This document shows positions 43,880-52,713 of a stretch of DNA of 64,000 nucleotides, piece after piece. Each line of letters starts with the position of its first letter. Position 1 is the first letter of the stretch. Position numbers and translations under genes: made by a program. The notes under the pieces were generated by a model. It saw only the letters and a list, made by a program, of their open reading frames with translations. It was not told the DNA's origin and ran no database searches. This stretch comes from Maricaulaceae bacterium EIL42A08 (GTDB lineage Bacteria > Pseudomonadota > Alphaproteobacteria > Caulobacterales > Maricaulaceae): assembly GCA_024178355.1 (NCBI GenBank), contig JAMZNZ010000006.1, forward strand, positions 186,001-250,000, given 5' to 3'.

Positions 43880-44998
43880 TTGAACATTCTTCAGGTCATA
43901 CCCGAGCTGGACGCCGGGGGCGCAGAACGCACCACGATTGAAGTGGCTGAAGCCATCGTGGCGGCGGGCGGGCGCGCGCTTGTCGCCAGTCTGGGCGGAC
44001 GTCTGGAAGCGGATCTGAAAGCGGTCGGTGGGGAGCTCGTCCGTCTGGATATGAAGACCAAGAACCCGGTTTCGATCTGGCTTAACGCCGGGCGGCTGGC
44101 AAAGATCGCTAAGGCTGAAGGTGTCGACATTATCCATGCCCGGTCCCGCGCCCCGGCATGGAGCGCCAATTGGGCGGCGCGACGTTTAGGTGTGTACTAC
44201 GTCACGACCTATCACGGAACGTATAACGCCCGCTCGGCGCTGAAGCGGGGTTATAACGCGGTCATGGCCGCCGGTGAGCGCGTGATCGCGAATTCTGAGT
44301 TCATCGCCGACCACGTGCGCGCCGAGCACGGCGTGGGGGATGACCGTCTGCGGGTGATTCCGCGCGGCGTTGATCTGGCGACGCTCGATCCGTCGAAAGT
44401 TGATGCCGATGCGGTCGCCGACCTGCGCAAAAGCTGGGGCGCGAGCGAAGACGACAGGGTGATCCTTCTGCCCGCGCGCCTGACCCGCTGGAAGGGTCAG
44501 GTCTTTTTCATCGAGGCGCTGGCGGGTCTTGCGGTGAAAGACCGCTGCCAGCTGGTGTGCCTGGGCGATGCCCAAGGGCGCACCGAATACGTAAGTGAGC
44601 TGACGTCCGCAGCTGAGGCTGGCGGCGTACGCCTGAGCCTTCCAGGTCACGCCCGTGACATGGCAACGGCCTACGCGGCAGCAGATGTGGTGGTCTGCCC
44701 GTCACTGGAACCAGAGGCGTTTGGTCGAACGGCAGCCGAAGCCCAGGCCATGGGCAAGCCTGTCATTGCCAGCAATCACGGCGGCGCGTGCGAAGTCGTT
44801 GTGCCCGGTGAAACGGGCTGGCTGGCTGCACCCGGCGAGGCGCGCCTTTGGGGCCTTGCGCTGATCGAGGCCCTCGGGCTCGACGAAAAAGCAGCCGATG
44901 CCATGGCAAAAGCGTCGCGCGAACGCATCACAGAGAAGTTTTCTACTGCCGCTCTGCAACACGCGACCTTGCAGGTTTATCGCGAGTTAATAGAGTAG
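43880..44998 (+). CDS. Family 4 glycosyltransferase
   Basis: 372 residues. GT-B fold: N-terminal IPELDAGGAERTTIEVA, HARSRAPAW, YHGTYNARSALKRGYN, and the nucleotide-sugar site PSLEPEAFGRTAAEAQAMGKPVIASNHGG. TTG at 43880 is the assigned start (NILQVIPEL follows). Four bases separate it from the GT9 gene downstream, so the two are probably one operon for lipopolysaccharide core or similar surface sugar assembly. Donor and acceptor are not determinable. Confidence 0.87.
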   Translation: MNILQVIPELDAGGAERTTIEVAEAIVAAGGRALVASLGGRLEADLKAVGGELVRLDMKTKNPVSIWLNAGRLAKIAKAEGVDIIHARSRAPAWSANWAARRLGVYYVTTYHGTYNARSALKRGYNAVMAAGERVIANSEFIADHVRAEHGVGDDRLRVIPRGVDLATLDPSKVDADAVADLRKSWGASEDDRVILLPARLTRWKGQVFFIEALAGLAVKDRCQLVCLGDAQGRTEYVSELTSAAEAGGVRLSLPGHARDMATAYAAADVVVCPSLEPEAFGRTAAEAQAMGKPVIASNHGGACEVVVPGETGWLAAPGEARLWGLALIEALGLDEKAADAMAKASRERITEKFSTAALQHATLQVYRELIE

Positions 44999-45002
44999 CG
45001 CG

Positions 45003-45995
45003 ATGGCTTTGAGCGAACCGCAAAAAGAACAGATCCTGATCCTGCATGATGGCGGGCTGGCCGACGTCGTGCGGATGCTGGCCGGTGCGCGCGCCATTCG
45101 CGAGCATCATCGCAAGGCCCGGATCACGCTTCTATGCGGCGAAGAGTTTGAAAAGCTCCTGAAACACTGCCCCTATTTCGACGCCGTCGAGCCTGAGCTT
45201 GAAGCCACGGCAAAGCAGGGCTTTTTTGATCGTCTGAAAGCGGCGCGCAACTCCCATGTCGACGTGATTTATGATCTGGGTGGTGGTGTGGCTGCTAAAA
45301 AGATCAAAAGCGCGGCGCGCTTTGCAAAGGGGGGCTGGATCGACGCAACGCCCGGCAAGCTTGAAGACGGGCACCCGCTCGATCAGATGGCAGCCAAGCT
45401 GGCCGCTGCAGGTCTGAGTGGTCCGCAGATTGTCCGTCTGGGTGAGGCTGAACCGCCAGATCTTGACTGGGTGGATTTCGTCGCCAAGCGCTCGCGCACC
45501 TTGGATCCGGCCTATTTTGGTCTGCATGGAAAATTTGCCCTGTTCGCACCTGTTGGCGACGACAGCCTGCCCGCCCTGCGCTGGCCGAAAGAGCGGTGGG
45601 CCTCGCTTGCCCATGCTCTCATTGAAGAAGGTGTTGAACCGGTCGTGATTGGCGGGCCAACAACGCGCGAGATCGGCCGCTATGTGGCGCACATGGTGCC
45701 TGGCGCTCGTGATCTGACAGGCCGCGCTGATCTGGTGCAGCTGGCCGGGCTTGGTCGCAAGGCGAGCTTTGCCTTTGGCGAGGACGTGCCCCTTCTGCAC
45801 CTGTTGGTCGCTGCTGGAGCCCCCGCCGTTCAGTTCAACGCCGGCGATCGGGCGCCGGTTGAAACCGCGCCGCGGGGCCGGGCACCAACCGTCATGATGT
45901 TCGCGCCAACCCTCGCTCAGATCAGCGCGCCGGAGGCCGTTCAGGCCATGCGCTGCGCCGGTGGCTTCAGCGTCAATGACGCTGACGCGGCGTGA
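45003..45995 (+). CDS. Family 9 glycosyltransferase (heptosyltransferase-like)
   Basis: 330 residues. The N terminus ILILHDGGLADVVRMLAGARAIREHHRKARITLL and the domain-2 motifs FALFAPVGDDSLPALRWPKERWASLAHAL and APAVQFNAGD resemble ADP-heptose:LPS heptosyltransferases (GT9). It is more divergent than WaaC or WaaF: the usual GGD segment is partly lost. Next to the GT4 gene it probably works in lipopolysaccharide core assembly in the cytosol. Confidence 0.8.
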   Translation: MALSEPQKEQILILHDGGLADVVRMLAGARAIREHHRKARITLLCGEEFEKLLKHCPYFDAVEPELEATAKQGFFDRLKAARNSHVDVIYDLGGGVAAKKIKSAARFAKGGWIDATPGKLEDGHPLDQMAAKLAAAGLSGPQIVRLGEAEPPDLDWVDFVAKRSRTLDPAYFGLHGKFALFAPVGDDSLPALRWPKERWASLAHALIEEGVEPVVIGGPTTREIGRYVAHMVPGARDLTGRADLVQLAGLGRKASFAFGEDVPLLHLLVAAGAPAVQFNAGDRAPVETAPRGRAPTVMMFAPTLAQISAPEAVQAMRCAGGFSVNDADAA

Positions 45996-46100: not shown

Positions 46101-46640
46101 ATAGCTCGACGTCCGCACGCCGCGCCGCCGCCCAAGAAGGAAGGCCCGCGAATTAACAGAGAGATCCGGTCCGCCCGGGTCCTGCTGATCGATGAAGAGG
46201 GTGAAAAACAGGGCATCATGCCCGTTGAAGCCGCGCTTGAAGCCGCTCAAGAGGCTGGGCTGGACCTTGTTGAAGTGTCCCCCAACGCTGATCCGCCTGT
46301 CTGTAAGATTATCGATTACGGCAAGCTGAAGTATCAGGAACAAAAGAAAAAAGCCGAAGCGCGCAAGAAGCAGAAAACTCAGGACGTCAAAGAAATCAAA
46401 ATGCGTCCGAACATCGATGTGCATGACTATCAGGTGAAAACCAAAGCCATGACGCGCTTCTTCGAAGAGGGCGACAAGGTGAAGGTGACCCTGCGCTTCC
46501 GCGGTCGCGAAATGGCTCACCAAAGCCGGGGCATGGATGTCATGAACCGCGTCAAGGAAGACTTCGGTGAACTCGCCAAGGTGGAACTTGAGCCCAAGCT
46601 CGAAGGCCGCCAGATGATCATGGTGATGGCTCCGCGCTAA
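46101..46640 (+). CDS. infC: Translation initiation factor IF-3, probable AUA start
   Basis: 179 residues. Binds the 30S subunit and checks start-codon and initiator-tRNA pairing. The reading frame is family-like from ATA 46101 (then [22 protein letters not shown]), with GGAG seven bases upstream; the rest has [37 protein letters not shown] and the C-terminal [10 protein letters not shown]. No in-frame ATG occurs before 46218, which would cut off the first 39 residues, half of the N domain. A second candidate is ATT 46152, also with a good AAGGAAGG ahead. Non-AUG starts are the classical means of IF-3 autoregulation. A terminator follows the stop. Confidence 0.93.
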
Positions 46641-46668
46641 GTCGCGAGGGGCTTTCTGATCCATTAAA

Positions 46669-46703
46669 ACCCCGTCGCATGCGCTATGCGGCGGGGTTTT
46701 TTC
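46669..46703 (+). terminator. Terminator downstream of infC
   Basis: An ACCCCGTCGCAT arm (46669-46680) pairs with ATGCGGCGGGGT (46686-46697) apart from one G-T position, followed by a T run to 46702. It separates infC from the secreted-repeat genes. Confidence 0.85.
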
Positions 46704-46897
46704 GTGTTCGGGGCGGTGTTGAAACGCTCTTTCTCCTTAAAGCTTGCGTCATTGCGCCCCAGTTTCGCCTTACATCCACGTAACGTTGGATTTTGGGAGA
46801 TGAAGGTCGTAAGGTCTTCAAAGGGATTGATTTTATTTTGCGGGCTTCTGAAGCGCTTGCGCGATCGGGGGCTCGGCCAGGTCAATGGGGACATATT

Positions 46898-48292
46898 ATG
46901 AAGACCATGATTGGACTGGTAGCGAGCCTTGGGCTGGCTGCACTTTCAGCAAACGCGAGCGCACAGGACTATAGCGCCGACCCATCCTTTGGTTCGGTGA
47001 CCTTGTCGGCGGGTTTCACGCCAGACCCTCACTCTCGCAACCTGACGGCAGGGGGTTCAATCCGGGCCCAAGACCGGTTTTCCAGTTGCCGAGGCTATAT
47101 CGCCAATGCGCCGGATTACTCGGTTTATTACACGGCCGGATCGACCTTTCCGCTGATTTTTACGGTCGATTCCGATCGCGACACGACGCTGGTTATCAAT
47201 GGCCCGGATACGCGCTGGTACTGCGATGATGATGGGGCCGAAGAGCCGCTGAACCCGATGGTTCGTTTCAACAGCCCGCAGTCTGGCCGTTATGATATCT
47301 GGGTCGGGACCTATTCGCGCGGCTCCAATGTGCCGGCAACGCTGTTCGTTTCTGAAGTTGGCGAGCATACCCGCGATGGCTCCTCCTCCTGGAGTGGGTC
47401 GAGCCAGTCGTCTTCCAGTGCGAGCATCTCGCTTCCGGCTCGCTACGGTAACCGCACGATCAGCGGCGGCTTCCTTCCCGATCCCTGGACGATGGATGTC
47501 ACCGCAGGCGGCCCGCTCCGCGCCAACGATGCGATTAATTCCAATACGTTCTGCTCTGGCTATATCACTGCCGAACCCACCGTTGAGGTTCGCTATGATG
47601 GGTCCAGTGACTTTCACATCTACACGTCTGGCTCTGCTGACGTGACGCTGGCCGTCAATGGTCCAGACGGGACCTGGTACTGCAACGATGACGGGGCTTC
47701 CGGGGCGAATGCGGGCGTCAGCCTGACCTCGGGCACCACGGGCACCTATGACATTTATGTTGGCACTTTCTCTCAGGGTGAGCGCCAGACCCGGCTCAAT
47801 ATCTCTGAGATCGCCATGGATTATGGCACGGGTTCCGGTTCGAGTGGTGGCAGCTCATCGTCGTCCAGTGCGAATATTTCGCTTCCGGCCCGCTACGGTA
47901 ATCGTACGATCAGCGGCGGCTTCCTGCCTGATCCCTGGACGATGGATGTCACCGCGGGTGGCCCGCTGCGTGCCAATGACGCGATCAACGCCAATACCTT
48001 CTGCTCGGGTTACATCACTGCCGAGCCCACCGTTGAAGTCCGCTATGATGGCTCTAGTGACTTTCACATCTACACGTCTGGCTCTGCTGACGTGACGCTG
48101 GCCGTCAATGGGCCTGATGGGACCTGGTATTGCAACGATGACGGAGCCTCCGGGGCCAATGCCGGTGTGAGCCTGACCTCGGGCACCACAGGCACCTACG
48201 ACATCTATGTCGGCACCTTCTCTCAGGGATCGCAGTCGACACGGCTGAACATTTCTGAGATCGCCATGGACTATGGCGTTAACAGCAAATAG
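46898..48292 (+). CDS. Secreted protein with three PPC-like repeat domains
   Basis: 464 residues. A signal peptide (MKTMIGLVASLGLAALSANASA) is followed by three ~130-residue domains joined by serine-rich linkers. Each domain shows the order GFxPDPxxxxxxAGG, CxGYI, a DTTL- or DVTL-type strand, NGPDGTWYCxDDG, SGxYDIYVGT and LxISE. The two cysteines per domain would form a disulfide. The fold resembles pre-peptidase C-terminal (PPC) beta-sandwich domains, but no catalytic domain is present. Repeats 2 and 3 are almost identical at DNA level. ATG 46898 has GGGGA seven bases upstream; earlier in-frame starts lack a signal peptide. Function unknown, probably surface or extracellular binding. Confidence 0.8.
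   Translation: MKTMIGLVASLGLAALSANASAQDYSADPSFGSVTLSAGFTPDPHSRNLTAGGSIRAQDRFSSCRGYIANAPDYSVYYTAGSTFPLIFTVDSDRDTTLVINGPDTRWYCDDDGAEEPLNPMVRFNSPQSGRYDIWVGTYSRGSNVPATLFVSEVGEHTRDGSSSWSGSSQSSSSASISLPARYGNRTISGGFLPDPWTMDVTAGGPLRANDAINSNTFCSGYITAEPTVEVRYDGSSDFHIYTSGSADVTLAVNGPDGTWYCNDDGASGANAGVSLTSGTTGTYDIYVGTFSQGERQTRLNISEIAMDYGTGSGSSGGSSSSSSANISLPARYGNRTISGGFLPDPWTMDVTAGGPLRANDAINANTFCSGYITAEPTVEVRYDGSSDFHIYTSGSADVTLAVNGPDGTWYCNDDGASGANAGVSLTSGTTGTYDIYVGTFSQGSQSTRLNISEIAMDYGVNSK
47429..48289 (+). repeat. Tandem 450-bp intragenic duplication
   Basis: Unit 1 (47429-47878) and unit 2 (47879-48289, without the final linker) are in register at exactly 450 bases, 150 codons. One block of more than 50 bases, starting near 47608 and 48058, is identical. 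Differences are mostly synonymous, so the duplication is recent or kept alike by recombination. Confidence 0.9.
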
Positions 48293-48301
48293 CGCGAACC
48301 G

Positions 48302-48337
48302 GCCCCGTTTGATCTCCAGACGGGGCAATTCGTTTTT
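48302..48337 (+). terminator. Weak terminator after the three-domain gene
   Basis: GCCCCGT (48302-48308) pairs with ACGGGGC (48320-48326) over an 11-base loop, followed six bases later by TTTTT (48333-48337). The gap between stem and T run makes it a weak candidate. Confidence 0.5.
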
Positions 48338-48373
48338 CAATTGGGACTGAAAACCTAGGGGAAGGAGACCCTC

Positions 48374-48844
48374 ATGCTTAAAACAATCGCAACTGTCGGC
48401 CTTGTGGCTGGCCTTTTTACTGGCGTCGCCGCGGCACAGGATTACAGCCTGTCGCCAAACTACACGACGATGAATCTGAGCTCCGGCTTTTCTGATGATC
48501 CGCGCACGGTTCGCTTGAGCTCTGGTGGCAGCAATGATGCCTCGCAGACAATTGGCGGCAGCTGCCGCGGTTTCGTCTCGAGCGCGCCAGACGTTCGCGT
48601 GAACTATTCAGCCGGCTCGACCTTCCCGCTGATCTTCTCGGTGAATTCTGATTCCGACACCACGCTTGTGATCAACGGCCCTGACGGTCGCTGGTATTGT
48701 GATGATGACGGTGGCAACGGTCTGAACCCGTCCTACCGCTTCTCAAACCCGCAGTCGGGTCAGTATGACGTGTGGGTTGGCACCTATGGTGGCTCAAGCC
48801 TTGAGACGGCGACCCTTTATGTGTCCGAGATCAGCAGCCAGTAA
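48374..48844 (+). CDS. Secreted single-domain member of the PPC-like family
   Basis: 156 residues: a signal peptide (MLKTIATVGLVAGLFTGVAAA) plus one copy of the domain found in its two neighbours. It shows GFSDDPRTVRLSSGG, CRGFVSSAPDV, SDTTLVINGPDGRWYCDDDGG, NPQSGQYDVWVGTY and ATLYVSEI. This single copy is most like the first domain of the upstream gene. AAGGAG precedes the ATG. It may be the minimal unit of the family. Confidence 0.8.
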   Translation: MLKTIATVGLVAGLFTGVAAAQDYSLSPNYTTMNLSSGFSDDPRTVRLSSGGSNDASQTIGGSCRGFVSSAPDVRVNYSAGSTFPLIFSVNSDSDTTLVINGPDGRWYCDDDGGNGLNPSYRFSNPQSGQYDVWVGTYGGSSLETATLYVSEISSQ

Positions 48845-48866
48845 GGCGTCTCGCACGCAATAACTT

Positions 48867-48905
48867 CAGGGGTGCACTCGCCATCATATGGTGAATGAGC
48901 CCCTG
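48867..48905 (+). other. Three-tier hairpin between two repeat-protein genes
   Basis: CAGGGG/CCCCTG (48867-48872, 48900-48905), CTC/GAG (48877-48879, 48897-48899) and CCAT/ATGG (48881-48884, 48888-48891) nest in one structure. No T run follows closely, so it is not a clear terminator; it could be an mRNA stabilising or processing element. Confidence 0.4.
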
Positions 48906-48937
48906 CAGGCCCTTTAAAGTCACCACAGGAGCGCCCC

Positions 48938-50698
48938 ATGCGGATTCTGCTCGCCGCCAGCCTGCTGGCCACGACCTCTTCTCTTGCTTACGCACAAAGT
49001 TTCGAAGGCCCGCCGGCCTATGGTGACGTTAACTGGGCACCGGGTGATGACCCGGCCAGCGTTGTCGTTTTGGCTGCCGGTGCGATGCCTGCCGAATGGC
49101 TGGACAGCAGCTGCTACGGCTATATCAGTCCCGCCCCGAGCGCCCGTGTCATTCTGGGCGAACGCGGTGATGTATCGATCGCCGCTGGAGCTGATGAAGA
49201 CCTGGTCATGGTGGTTCGCGGCCCGGATGGCAGGGTGACCTGTAATGACGATGGAGCTGGTAATTTAAATCCTGGAATCTCCCTGACAGATGCTGAAGCG
49301 GGAGCCTATGAGGTCTGGATCGGCAGCTATAGTGCGGGCGTGGGTCACCCCACAACTGTCCTTCACGTGTCAGATGAGTTCATCACCGATAACCCGTTTG
49401 TGGTTTCGCCAGATCCAATGCTGGCGGCGAACCACTCGGTTCGCCTGCGGGCCGGATTTGCTGATGATCCGCGCCGCGTCGCTGTCCGCGCTGGCGGCGA
49501 AGCGTCGCTCGATGGCCTGGATGGCAGCTGCTACGGTTATGCCGGTGCGGCTCCAAATGTGTCCGTCGACTATCGGGCTGGAGATTATGACCTCTATTTC
49601 CTGATGGAGTCCGATGCCGATGGCGTCATCGCCGTTCGCACTCCATCGGGTCAGATGCTGTGCAATGACGACCAGGTCGGGCTTAATCCGGGCGTTCATG
49701 TGGAGAGCCCTGAAAGCGGGCAATATCAGGTCTGGACGGGACTGCTGGGCGAGCGTCGCCGTGTGGTTGATGGCGAGCTGACGATTTCCGAGATCGGGTT
49801 TTCCGGCTTCGATAACCGTGTCGACCTGTCCGCTGAGGCTCGCTTCGAAACCCTGACAGTTGAAAGCGGCTTCACGCCGGACCCAATCGTGATCAATGTT
49901 GACGCGGGCGGTCGTGTTGACGCTGACGTGGCCACGGCTGGCGGTATGACCGACGGGTATTGCTCTGGCTATGTTTCGCGCGAGCCGAGCGTTGAGCTTA
50001 CCTATGAGGCCGGAGCCTTGCCGCTTTATCTGGCGGCCCGCGGTGAAGCGGACCTGACCTTGGCGGTCAACGGGCCGGACGGCACCTGGTATTGTGATGA
50101 CGACGGCGGTGGGGACCTGAACCCGGAGATCATGTTCGAAAGCCCGCAGAGCGGTGTTTACGACATCTATGTGGGCACTTTCAGTGACGAGCCGTACGGC
50201 TCAACCCGCGCAGAGCTGTTCATCTCGGAGCTGGAAGGTATTCCGGCCGGACCGCAGGTCGACCTCTCCCTGCCAGCTCTGTTCGAGACGCTATCGCTGA
50301 GTGCCGGCTTCCTGCCCGACCCTTACGTTATTGAGCTTGAAGCGGGCGGCCCGCTGGATGCCGATGAGTCCGGTGCCGGTGGTGGCGACGACTGGAGCTG
50401 GTGTGCTGGCAACATCACGCAGGCCCCGAGCGTGGAGCTCAACTGGGATGGCAATGGGGACCCGCTTTCCATCTTTGTAAACTCGGAGCGTGACACCACG
50501 CTGGCCATTAATCTGCCCGACGGCAGCTGGGTCTGCGATGATGACGGCGGTGTTGGCGTTGACGCGTCGGTAACGCTGGAGAACGCGCCTTCGGGTGTCT
50601 ACGACATCTATGTCGGGCTCTATTCTGGGAGCGGGACTGCGCCTGCGCAGCTCAATATCTCCGAGTTTGAAGCGCCGACCGATAACTGGGAAGAGTAG
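48938..50698 (+). CDS. Secreted protein with four PPC-like repeat domains
   Basis: 586 residues: a signal peptide (MRILLAASLLATTSSLAYA) and four copies of the domain family. Copies 3 and 4 keep all motifs (CSGYVSREPSVEL, NGPDGTWYCDDDGG; WCAGNITQAPSVEL, PDGSWVCDDDGG). Copies 1 and 2 are more divergent (CYGYISPAP, RVTCNDDGAG; CYGYAGAAPNV, MLCNDDQVG) but keep both cysteines and the SGxYxVWxG strand. The whole protein is acidic. AGGAG lies upstream of the ATG. With its two upstream neighbours it makes eight domain copies in 3.8 kb. Confidence 0.8.
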   Translation: MRILLAASLLATTSSLAYAQSFEGPPAYGDVNWAPGDDPASVVVLAAGAMPAEWLDSSCYGYISPAPSARVILGERGDVSIAAGADEDLVMVVRGPDGRVTCNDDGAGNLNPGISLTDAEAGAYEVWIGSYSAGVGHPTTVLHVSDEFITDNPFVVSPDPMLAANHSVRLRAGFADDPRRVAVRAGGEASLDGLDGSCYGYAGAAPNVSVDYRAGDYDLYFLMESDADGVIAVRTPSGQMLCNDDQVGLNPGVHVESPESGQYQVWTGLLGERRRVVDGELTISEIGFSGFDNRVDLSAEARFETLTVESGFTPDPIVINVDAGGRVDADVATAGGMTDGYCSGYVSREPSVELTYEAGALPLYLAARGEADLTLAVNGPDGTWYCDDDGGGDLNPEIMFESPQSGVYDIYVGTFSDEPYGSTRAELFISELEGIPAGPQVDLSLPALFETLSLSAGFLPDPYVIELEAGGPLDADESGAGGGDDWSWCAGNITQAPSVELNWDGNGDPLSIFVNSERDTTLAINLPDGSWVCDDDGGVGVDASVTLENAPSGVYDIYVGLYSGSGTAPAQLNISEFEAPTDNWEE

Positions 50699-50886
50699 GC
50701 GCGCGCCGCATCTTCCACCTGAAAGTGGGCGGGCGCAGCTTCATCGGCTATGCCCGCTTGCGTTTTGCGACGGGACGCGTATAACCCCCGCTCCCATAAA
50801 ACAGCTCGTCCCGGCCATATTCGACATGCCGGGCGGGTGTGGAACGCCTCGGGACGGCTTGCCGCCCTAAAACGAAGGAGAGCGAA

Positions 50887-51090
50887 ATGTCGAAGCTGAA
50901 GACCAAATCGGGCGCCAAGAAGCGCTTTAAGGTAACGGCGACGGGCAAAGTCCTGGCTGCCGGTGCCGGCAAGCGCCACGGCATGATTAAGCGTACGCCG
51001 AAGCAGATCCGTCAGAAGCGTGGCACCTCTGCCATGGCTGAGCCGGATGCACGTGTCGTCAAGCGCAGCTATATGCCGTACAACCGCTAA
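50887..51090 (+). CDS. rpmI: Large-subunit ribosomal protein L35
   Basis: 67 residues, highly basic. The sequence [38 protein letters not shown] is diagnostic for bL35. ATG 50887 follows AAGGAGAG; an earlier in-frame ATG is not part of the protein. It is 38 bases upstream of rplT. In most bacteria it follows infC directly; here four kilobases of secreted-protein genes intervene. Confidence 0.97.
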
Positions 51091-51127: not shown

Positions 51128-51484
51128 ATGGCACGAGTGTCTTCCGGACCCGCCCATCACGCCCGTAAAAAGAAAATCATCGACAACGCCAAAGGTTATT
51201 ATGGCCGCCGGAAAAATACCTTCCGCGCTGCCAACCAGGCAGTCGAAAAAGCCGGCCAGTACGCTTACCGCGACCGCCGCAACAAGAAGCGCGTCTTCCG
51301 CGCTCTGTGGATTCAGCGCATCAACGCCGCCGCGCGTCTTAATGAGCTGACCTACTCCACCTTCATGAACGGCCTGAAGCAGGCTGGCATCGAGCTTGAC
51401 CGCAAGGTCCTCGCCGACATCGCCGTGCGCGAGCCGGAAGCTTTTGCTGAGCTGGCCAAGCAAGCCAAGGCTGCGCTGGGTTAA
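51128..51484 (+). CDS. rplT: Large-subunit ribosomal protein L20
   Basis: 118 residues. [32 protein letters not shown] and [21 protein letters not shown] match bL20, which binds 23S rRNA early in assembly and, in several bacteria, represses its own operon. A clear terminator follows, so pheS is a separate unit. Confidence 0.97.
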
Positions 51485-51624: not shown

Positions 51625-52713
51625 ATGACCGACACCGCCACCGCCGACCTTGAAGCCCTCGAAGCGCGCTTTGCGAGCGATATCGCTGGTGCGAGCGACC
51701 TTGCCGCGCTGGATGCGGTGCGTGTGGCCGCTGTTGGCAAGAAGGGTGAGGTCAGCCTTCTGATGAAGACGCTGGGCAAGATGACCCCGGAAGAGCGTCA
51801 GGTTATGGGCCCGGCGCTCAACGGCCTGCGCAACCGTCTCAATGAGGCGATTGAAGCGCGCAAGGCGGCGCTGGAAGACGAGGCTCTCAACGCAGCGCTC
51901 GCGAGCGAAACCGTGGATGTCACCCGCCCGGTTGCGCCAACACGTATTGGCAAGCTCCACCCGGTCAATCAGGTGATGGAAGAGCTGGCGGTGATCTTCG
52001 CCGATATGGGCTTTAAAGTCGCTGAAGGCCCGGACGTGGAAGACGACTTCCATAACTTCACCGCGTTGAACTTCCCGCCCGATCACCCGGCGCGCGACAC
52101 CCATGACACCTTTTTCATGGAGGCCGCCGACGGTGAAACGCCGAAAGTGCTGCGCACCCACACCAGCCCGGTTCAGATCCGCACCATGGTCAGCGAAGAG
52201 CCGCCGATCCGCATCATCGCGCCGGGCCGGGTCTATCGCTGTGACTGGGACCAGACCCACACGCCGATGTTCCATCAGGTCGAAGGTCTGGTGATCGACA
52301 AGAACACCCATATGGGCCACCTGAAAGGCTGTCTTGAGCAGTTTGTCGGGGCCTTCTTTGAAACTGACACGGTCGAAGCTCGCTTCCGTCCGCACCACTT
52401 CCCCTTCACCGAGCCGAGCGCGGAGATGGATGTGCGCTATGAGCGCGTGGGCGATGCGGTGAAAGTCGGCTCCGGCGACAAGTGGATGGAAATTCTCGGC
52501 TGCGGCATGGTCCACCCGAACGTCATCAAGTCGTGCGGCCTGGACCCGGAAGAGTATCAGGGCTTCGCCTTCGGCATGGGTGTGGATCGCCTCGCCATGC
52601 TGAAATATGGCATGAGCGACCTGCGCCCCTTCTTTGAACCCGACACCCGCTGGTCAGGCCATTACGGTTTCTCGCCGCTCCTGCAGGCAAATTTGGCAAC
52701 GGGGCTGAGCTGA
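51625..52713 (+). CDS. pheS: Phenylalanyl-tRNA synthetase alpha subunit
   Basis: 362 residues. Catalytic subunit of the class II alpha2-beta2 enzyme. An N-terminal coiled-coil arm is followed by [19 protein letters not shown], the motif 2 region [10 protein letters not shown] and [21 protein letters not shown], and the motif 3 segment [17 protein letters not shown]. The gene has a normal length. pheT does not follow directly as usual; an unknown gene lies between. Confidence 0.97.

Follow-up and report, generated by a model that had tools for sequence, protein, structure and literature searches.

What role do three secreted proteins play whose genes separate infC from rpmI in an alphaproteobacterium, and what is the domain of which they are built? 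The genes lie side by side on the forward strand at 46898–50698 of a 64,000-nucleotide stretch (the window) of contig JAMZNZ010000006.1 from Maricaulaceae bacterium EIL42A08, which has a genome of 2.99 Mb; among named relatives, Oceanicaulis records come nearest to it in the search. Behind a signal peptide, each protein consists of copies of a single PPC-like domain. In the reading that we favour, with a probability of about 0.5, the three genes encode secreted binding proteins of a PPC subfamily, multivalent in the manner of "beads on a string".

Gene 1 (46898–48292; 464 residues) carries three domains, at 46979–47365, 47435–47818 and 47885–48268, with Ser/Gly-rich linkers in between. Gene 2 (48374–48844; 156 residues) carries one (48452–48838), and gene 3 (48938–50698; 586 residues) carries four, located by profile and sequence search at 49010–49384, 49421–49801, 49835–50239 and 50273–50674. 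When the gene-2 protein is used as a query against the whole genome, the other seven domains of the window are all matched at an expectation value (E) ≤1.6e-21. A profile of the eight domains scores each copy at 140–186 bits, values that are not independent of the profile built from the same domains, and delimits the same three, one and four copies. The domain is about 125 residues long and is recognized by two cysteines and the signature G-F-x-P-D-P ... W-Y-C-x-D-D-G ... S-G-x-Y-D-I-W-V-G. In 195 domains drawn from the closest relatives, G30, D73, C87, G107 and Y109 are invariant, both cysteines of the pair C42 and C87 are found in 194, and all 195 have exactly two cysteines. C87 lies inside one of the six patterns used to search for relatives, so its conservation is partly selected for in the directly matched domains and not so in the remaining domains of these proteins. 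A preliminary description of the locus had reported three adjacent signal-peptide proteins with these copy numbers and two conserved cysteines, and both statements hold; the core motif quoted there fits most copies and differs in domains 1 and 2 of gene 3 (GPDGRVTCNDDG and TPSGQMLCNDDQ).

A Pfam scan of the three proteins returned no model other than PPC at the cut-off, with no match to a trypsin-like or other peptidase domain, and an NCBIfam scan gave only one match, at chance level. Against PF04151, gene 3 scores 30.6 bits (cut-off 25.9), gene 1 21.7 and gene 2 10.6, and the Pfam PPC model detects 20 of 70 domain members at E 0.001. A sequence search of the PDB with a single-protein query found no significant match; with the domain profile, the lowest E values are 0.014–0.07 (channel chains), and KP-43 follows at E 0.23. 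Entries 6v4b, 9ftg and 6v4a, of the Neur_chan_LBD or neurotransmitter-gated ion channel type, are weakly matched across the D-D-D-G-G ... G-x-Y stretch.

The AlphaFold2 model of the mature gene-2 protein has a predicted local distance difference test score (pLDDT) of 92.6 and a predicted template modelling score (pTM) of 0.88. Six PDB entries match this model in Foldseek at E ≤0.001: PliG ranks highest, and the others are a collagenase PPC domain, two subtilases, the C-terminal domain of C. perfringens enterotoxin and a CUB domain. The Foldseek probability is 1.00 for PliG (4dzg; E 1.9e-4), the subtilases SubHal and KP-43 and the B. anthracis collagenase PPC domain (5sv5), and also for the collagen-binding domain of ColG (1nqj_A), whose template modelling (TM) score by target length is 0.71. 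A PPC-type fold is indicated by probabilities of 1.00 to 5sv5, 1nqj, 2o8o, 1wmd and 5fax, with TM scores by query length of 0.45–0.54. Because PliG, subtilase C-terminal domains and collagenase PPC domains are among the best solved matches, the domain is probably, to judge by these models, a divergent, cysteine-bearing branch of the PPC superfamily. The earlier label "PPC-like" is supported by the structural matches and by the score of gene 3. The model of the gene-3 protein contains four well-predicted domains (pLDDT 87.2) whose mutual placing is poorly defined (pTM 0.43), as expected for a flexible string of domains.

The proteins appear to leave the cytoplasm. By eye, the N-termini of all three are Sec signal peptides that end in an A-x-A site and have no lipobox, and a crude rule finds a signal-like start in 101 of 109 close homologous open reading frames (ORFs), in keeping with the export proposed earlier. 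These 109 ORFs come from a scan of related loci in which the best 80 of 107 relatives were kept; 61, 31, 4 and 13 of them have one, two, three and four domains, respectively. None has an extra C-terminal domain (the sole tail of more than 40 residues is on an ORF cut by a contig end), and six with long upstream frames contain no Pfam domain other than PPC. The stand-alone form, as described earlier, is the sole form among these ORFs. The window genes had also been considered as possible fragments of peptidase genes, an idea that we reject: they are complete ORFs with their own signal-like starts, and close relatives have the same form. Export and a non-enzymatic nature are well supported from the sequences.

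More distant relatives carry the module on other proteins. It is found on a Trypsin_2 peptidase (locus L125), on trypsins (L187 and L189) and on a caspase-like C14 peptidase (L187), where the peptidase-fused modules of L187 and L189 score 84–142 bits. It also co-occurs with DUF945 (L124), Sel1 and OmpA (L126) and GYF_2 (L130), and one ORF of L129 has five copies. The absence of an enzyme domain, claimed in the preliminary description, is thus correct for the three proteins and the 109 close ORFs and does not extend to L125, L187 and L189, nor to a weaker-scoring branch in L181 and L182. This branch, at 36–54 bits, ends Ser/Thr kinases (Pkinase), and in L181, L182 and L186 it is preceded by a hydrophobic, pilin-like start and a stalk rich in Asp. 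Since its cysteines sit elsewhere (by eye), the branch is judged from sequence to be related to the window module rather than the same. The kinase genes (L181 14717–17005; L182 4464–6929) encode a C-terminal, cysteine-bearing PPC-like domain that is possibly a sensor, and further such genes lie nearby. The products of L181 4015–4947, L182 15850–16788 and L186 9895–10968 have a long stalk, rich in Asp and Pro or in Asp and Thr, end in a PPC-like domain and look like surface display proteins; the pilin reading is our own, and its sole Pfam support is Flp1_like in L182, below the cut-off. The whole set of partners (Trypsin, Trypsin_2, C14, Pkinase, OmpA with Sel1, DUF945, GYF_2 and the pilin-like starts) fits an extracytoplasmic binding or sensing module.

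How such proteins might work can be framed by better-known PPC proteins. In Vibrio-group collagenases, the PPC domain attaches to insoluble collagen (PMC8799719; PMC6168687). Mutating aromatic and acidic residues weakens this binding, and with one exception these residues map to a single face of a homology model (PMC8799719). PliG binds g-type lysozyme and aids the survival of E. coli in mussel haemolymph, although deletion of pliG showed no such effect in cell-free plasma (PMC10609593). Because PPC domains and PliG share specific extracytoplasmic binding, the window proteins are read as monovalent or multivalent binders. After export, the two cysteines would form a disulphide, and the proteins would stay in the periplasm or exit through a type II secretion system. 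The genome has two matches to the secretin GspD over the cut-off, and secretion by this putative route is possible. Each domain would act as a binding module, in which the strands with the conserved W85, Y109 and W112, together with the acidic loop D88–D90, could form a binding face like the one, aromatic and acidic, with which the PPC domain of Vibrio collagenase is proposed to bind collagen. The one-domain protein would be the monovalent form, and the three- and four-domain forms would be flexible strings in which several domains together bind a repetitive polymer, on the cell surface or beyond it, with greater avidity; cell-wall, matrix and environmental polymers are candidates. In related lineages, the same module would aim peptidases, and the related branch would form the outer part of kinases or sit on pilin-like stems.

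Several points weigh against this reading. The binding role is argued from likeness to other PPC proteins, W85, Y109 and W112 may be conserved for structural reasons, and the export route is putative. Genes 1 and 2 score under the Pfam PPC cut-off. TM scores by query length are just 0.39–0.54 against PliG, subtilase and PPC entries, with root-mean-square deviations of 3.5–9.2 Å; the greater length of the domain relative to its matches partly explains these modest scores. The top Foldseek list also includes the C. perfringens enterotoxin C-terminal domain, CUB and GOLD, and because such other β-sandwiches rank among the top matches, the fold match points to a broad class. The adjoining genes are housekeeping genes and give no functional clue. 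Finally, the constraint on domain 1 of gene 1 is close to that on a ribosomal protein, with a ratio of nonsynonymous to synonymous divergence (dN/dS) of 0.06, which tells that the role matters and does not indicate its nature.

The distribution of the domain was surveyed with a profile of 70 domains at E 0.001, in which matches better than about 1e-8 are called strong and weaker ones may be ordinary PPC domains. In the order of the window, 59 of 150 genomes have a match (49 strong), as do 21 of 385 genomes in the class sample (17 strong) and 31 of 398 in the phylum sample (22 strong); only one strong match in the latter falls outside the class (G861). Of the 30 genomes listed for the family to which the window belongs, 18 have a match. 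About 10–28 candidates were scored per genome, so copy numbers per genome are lower bounds. Judged by record title, almost all of the 80 relatives kept in the scan of related loci are alphaproteobacterial, and one record is titled as Balneolales; outside the order the domain also occurs in Sphingomonadales-named records and Tistrella. A mobile or phage origin was considered and set aside: a phage search gave no match at E 0.001, and a plasmid search gave two records only, at E 1e-5, both typed as non-mobilizable. In Tistrella mobilis pTM1, a stand-alone relative (L206 3908–4399) is flanked by hcp and tssA of a type VI secretion cluster, and in both sampled Tistrella genomes (G033:C13 and G260:C2) about 2 kb separate TssC from the domain. 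A general link to type VI secretion was discarded. By raw counts, TssC occurs in 6 of 21 domain-bearing class genomes (5 of 17 strong) and in 64 of 364 without the domain, and the window's genome has no TssC match, so the placing in Tistrella is not general.

The closest structural match suggests another function, namely that the proteins act in the periplasm like PliG and inhibit lysozymes or other enzymes that cleave peptidoglycan; their S-G-x-Y loop would plug the active site of the enzyme, and their multi-domain forms would be multi-headed. PliG is the top solved-structure match by E value, and E. coli PliG itself scores 42.6 bits against PF04151. A stand-alone exported PPC protein with this role thus exists, which qualifies the preliminary description of a stand-alone family whose role was not known to be described. 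A motif S-x-S-G-A-x-Y is described as common to MliC/PliC, PliI and PliG (PMC5507604); in the domain studied here, G107 and Y109 of S-G-x-Y occur in 195 of 195 copies. Tsi3, of PliG type according to PMC5507604, was not used, since its structure paper (PMC3792639) does not mention PPC and names other structural neighbours. The alignment with KP-43 places G-x-Y in an ordinary PPC domain too. Indeed, G-x-Y is typical of ordinary PPC domains, so S-G-x-Y does not discriminate. An hhalign comparison with the single PliG sequence is weak (probability 1.7%, E 0.029), the type VI placing of one Tistrella relative, which would suit an inhibitor, is not shared by the window's genome, and we know of no three- or four-domain inhibitors of this kind. 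We regard inhibition as an unlikely function. A bolder extension, in which the family comprises envelope proteins with several heads, widespread in alphaproteobacteria and unrecognized so far, that sense or block enzymes that cleave peptidoglycan, or fragments, with PliG-like heads, strings for avidity and kinase-fused heads that report the same ligand, is a long shot.

Many of these bacteria are stalked, and the proteins could have a structural part in a holdfast, a stalk, a surface layer or an extracellular matrix. The build as a string of domains, with Ser/Gly-rich linkers in gene 1, the pilin-like stems of the related branch and the frequency of the domain in the order (59 of 150 genomes, 49 strong) would suit such a part. 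On the other hand, 91 of the 150 order genomes have no match, the domain is found well outside the order (Sphingomonadales-named records, Tistrella and one Balneolales-named record), and no matrix, stalk or holdfast gene was recognized by eye beside the cassette. A structural role is accordingly improbable in our judgement, and the matrix function named in the preliminary description, not supported as written there, was graded a guess. Still less probable is that the domain became detached from a peptidase and now serves the cell's own peptidases as a decoy, chaperone or targeting factor. In distant relatives the module is indeed fused to trypsin-like and caspase-like peptidases, and a stand-alone Tistrella protein is recorded as "peptidase S1" without a peptidase domain. 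Conversely, all 109 close ORFs are stand-alone, no peptidase gene was recognized by eye beside the cassette, and the two subtilase-like genes of the genome (by eye) have ordinary PPC matches of their own. These two genes are neighbours, and one has a TAG inside its PPC stretch (L001; G000:C1:78450–78665).

The history of the copies can be followed in part. The genome holds ten domains in five genes: eight in the window, one on contig C2 and one on contig C1. The C2 gene is a second copy of gene 2 (97% protein identity, dN 0.018, dS 0.55) and lies at L004 1501–1971 (G000:C2) among small ORFs, at least one of which has a signal-like start by eye. In a tree of 80 domains, copies group mostly by position, with 21 label changes versus 54 when shuffled and a minimum of 9; few forks of this tree are resolved, and near-copies favour clustering by position. 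The grouping is also imperfect, as domains 2–4 of the Hyphobacterium type cluster together. Because the domains group mostly by position with the copies of other species, the four-domain layout of the long protein is old, as read from the tree. Domains 2 and 3 of gene 1 are sisters, and four kin loci have two domains in that gene, with a single domain at the place of the sisters; the third domain of gene 1 is, on this evidence, a lineage-specific duplicate. The family had been called expanding, which applies to gene 1 and not to the old layout of gene 3.

Sequence divergence indicates that the homologues are under purifying selection. Between homologues, dN/dS is 0.06 for domain 1 of gene 1, 0.14–0.18 for gene 2 against L014, L015 and L017 and 0.28 for gene 3 against L046, compared with 0.04 for infC and 0.07 for rplT; these ratios are rough because most dS values exceed 1. 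The dN itself is 0.11–0.42 for the cassette homologues versus 0.02–0.04 for infC and rplT. An extra-strong constraint between copies of the same genome, suggested by domains 2 and 3 of gene 1 (dN/dS 0.034), was rejected as not general: among pairs of at least 70% identity and dS 0.2–1.2, the 20 pairs within loci have a median dN/dS of 0.236 and the 220 pairs between loci one of 0.239.

The position of the cassette recurs in relatives. The usual gene order is infC-rpmI-rplT, and in the window this order is split by about 4.2 kb of secreted-protein genes (46640–50887), as it is in several related genera. In 12 of the 80 loci fetched with gene 2, the stretch that holds the domain genes also contains infC and/or rpmI-rplT. 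Domain genes lie downstream of infC in 5 of 14 order genomes examined, with domain layouts of 2+1+4 (G503), 2+1+5 profile hits (G414), 1+4 (G390), 4 (G419) and 4, about 3 kb on (G424). In four of these five, rpmI follows the domain genes; it was not found in the G390 stretch. The other 9 of the 14 genomes have no domain gene there, and rpmI follows infC in 5 and was not found in the stretch in 4.

All named neighbours are on the forward strand, with names assigned by sequence recognition, without a family search. Upstream is infC (46101–46640), which encodes translation initiation factor IF3 and whose orthologues adjoin the cassette in relatives. Its start is probably not ATG; an in-frame ATA at 46101 behind GGAG is the likely start codon, and the first ATG comes only at 46218. 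The gene has no ATG at the point where IF3 normally begins, and unusual start codons are known for infC. Terminator-like hairpins on the same strand follow infC before the cassette (46666–46703; 16 pairs and a T tail) and follow gene 1 (48302–48334). Because the hairpin scan of the region found 5 sites versus 3.6 ± 1.8 expected, which makes any single site weak, separate transcription is no more than suggested. Downstream lie rpmI (ribosomal protein L35; 50887–51090) and rplT (51128–51484), whose orthologues are near the cassette in relatives, then pheS (51625–52713) and pheT (from 53323). Further upstream, at 43880–45995, one glycosyltransferase-like and one heptosyltransferase-like ORF were recognized by eye.

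Taken as a whole, this is a real, conserved and mostly stand-alone family, a compact and recognizable module across 59 of 150 order genomes and 21 of 385 class genomes, most copies of which escape the general Pfam PPC model (20 of 70 found). No paper describing it was found in a literature search of titles and abstract starts that covered few subscription journals. One ligand could explain several extracytoplasmic systems, namely the peptidase fusions and the related kinase and pilin-like branch, and the fusions make the ligand a testable question.

Compared with known systems, the domain shares with PPC (PF04151; the C-terminal domains of subtilases and collagenases, including ColG) an exported β-sandwich of similar predicted topology. 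Homology is probable from the Pfam score of gene 3 and the Foldseek matches, and the D-x-x-L, P-D/N-G and S-G-x-Y stretches are similar in the alignment with KP-43. Clostridial PPC members bind calcium, collagen or both. The PPC model has 70 positions versus about 125 in the window domain, which, unlike PPC, has an added conserved N-terminal part (G-F-x-P-D-P and A-G-G) and two near-invariant cysteines. PPC is usually appended to a secreted peptidase, whereas the window proteins have no peptidase domain and are made of nothing but this domain; the difference is not defining, as PliG has no peptidase either. The Tistrella mobilis protein WP_145978280.1 has the same domain in stand-alone form (37% identity to gene 2 over 82%); its Pfam scan gave no trypsin-like domain and a sub-threshold PPC match only, so its name, "peptidase S1", is unsupported by its domains. 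The Tistrella protein lies within a type VI cluster, whereas the window genes belong to a genome without a TssC match. PliG (E. coli b1178, pliG), the best Foldseek match by E value, is likewise a stand-alone exported protein of a single PPC-type domain with an S-G-x-Y loop; it has little sequence similarity to the window family, which adds proteins of three and four domains.

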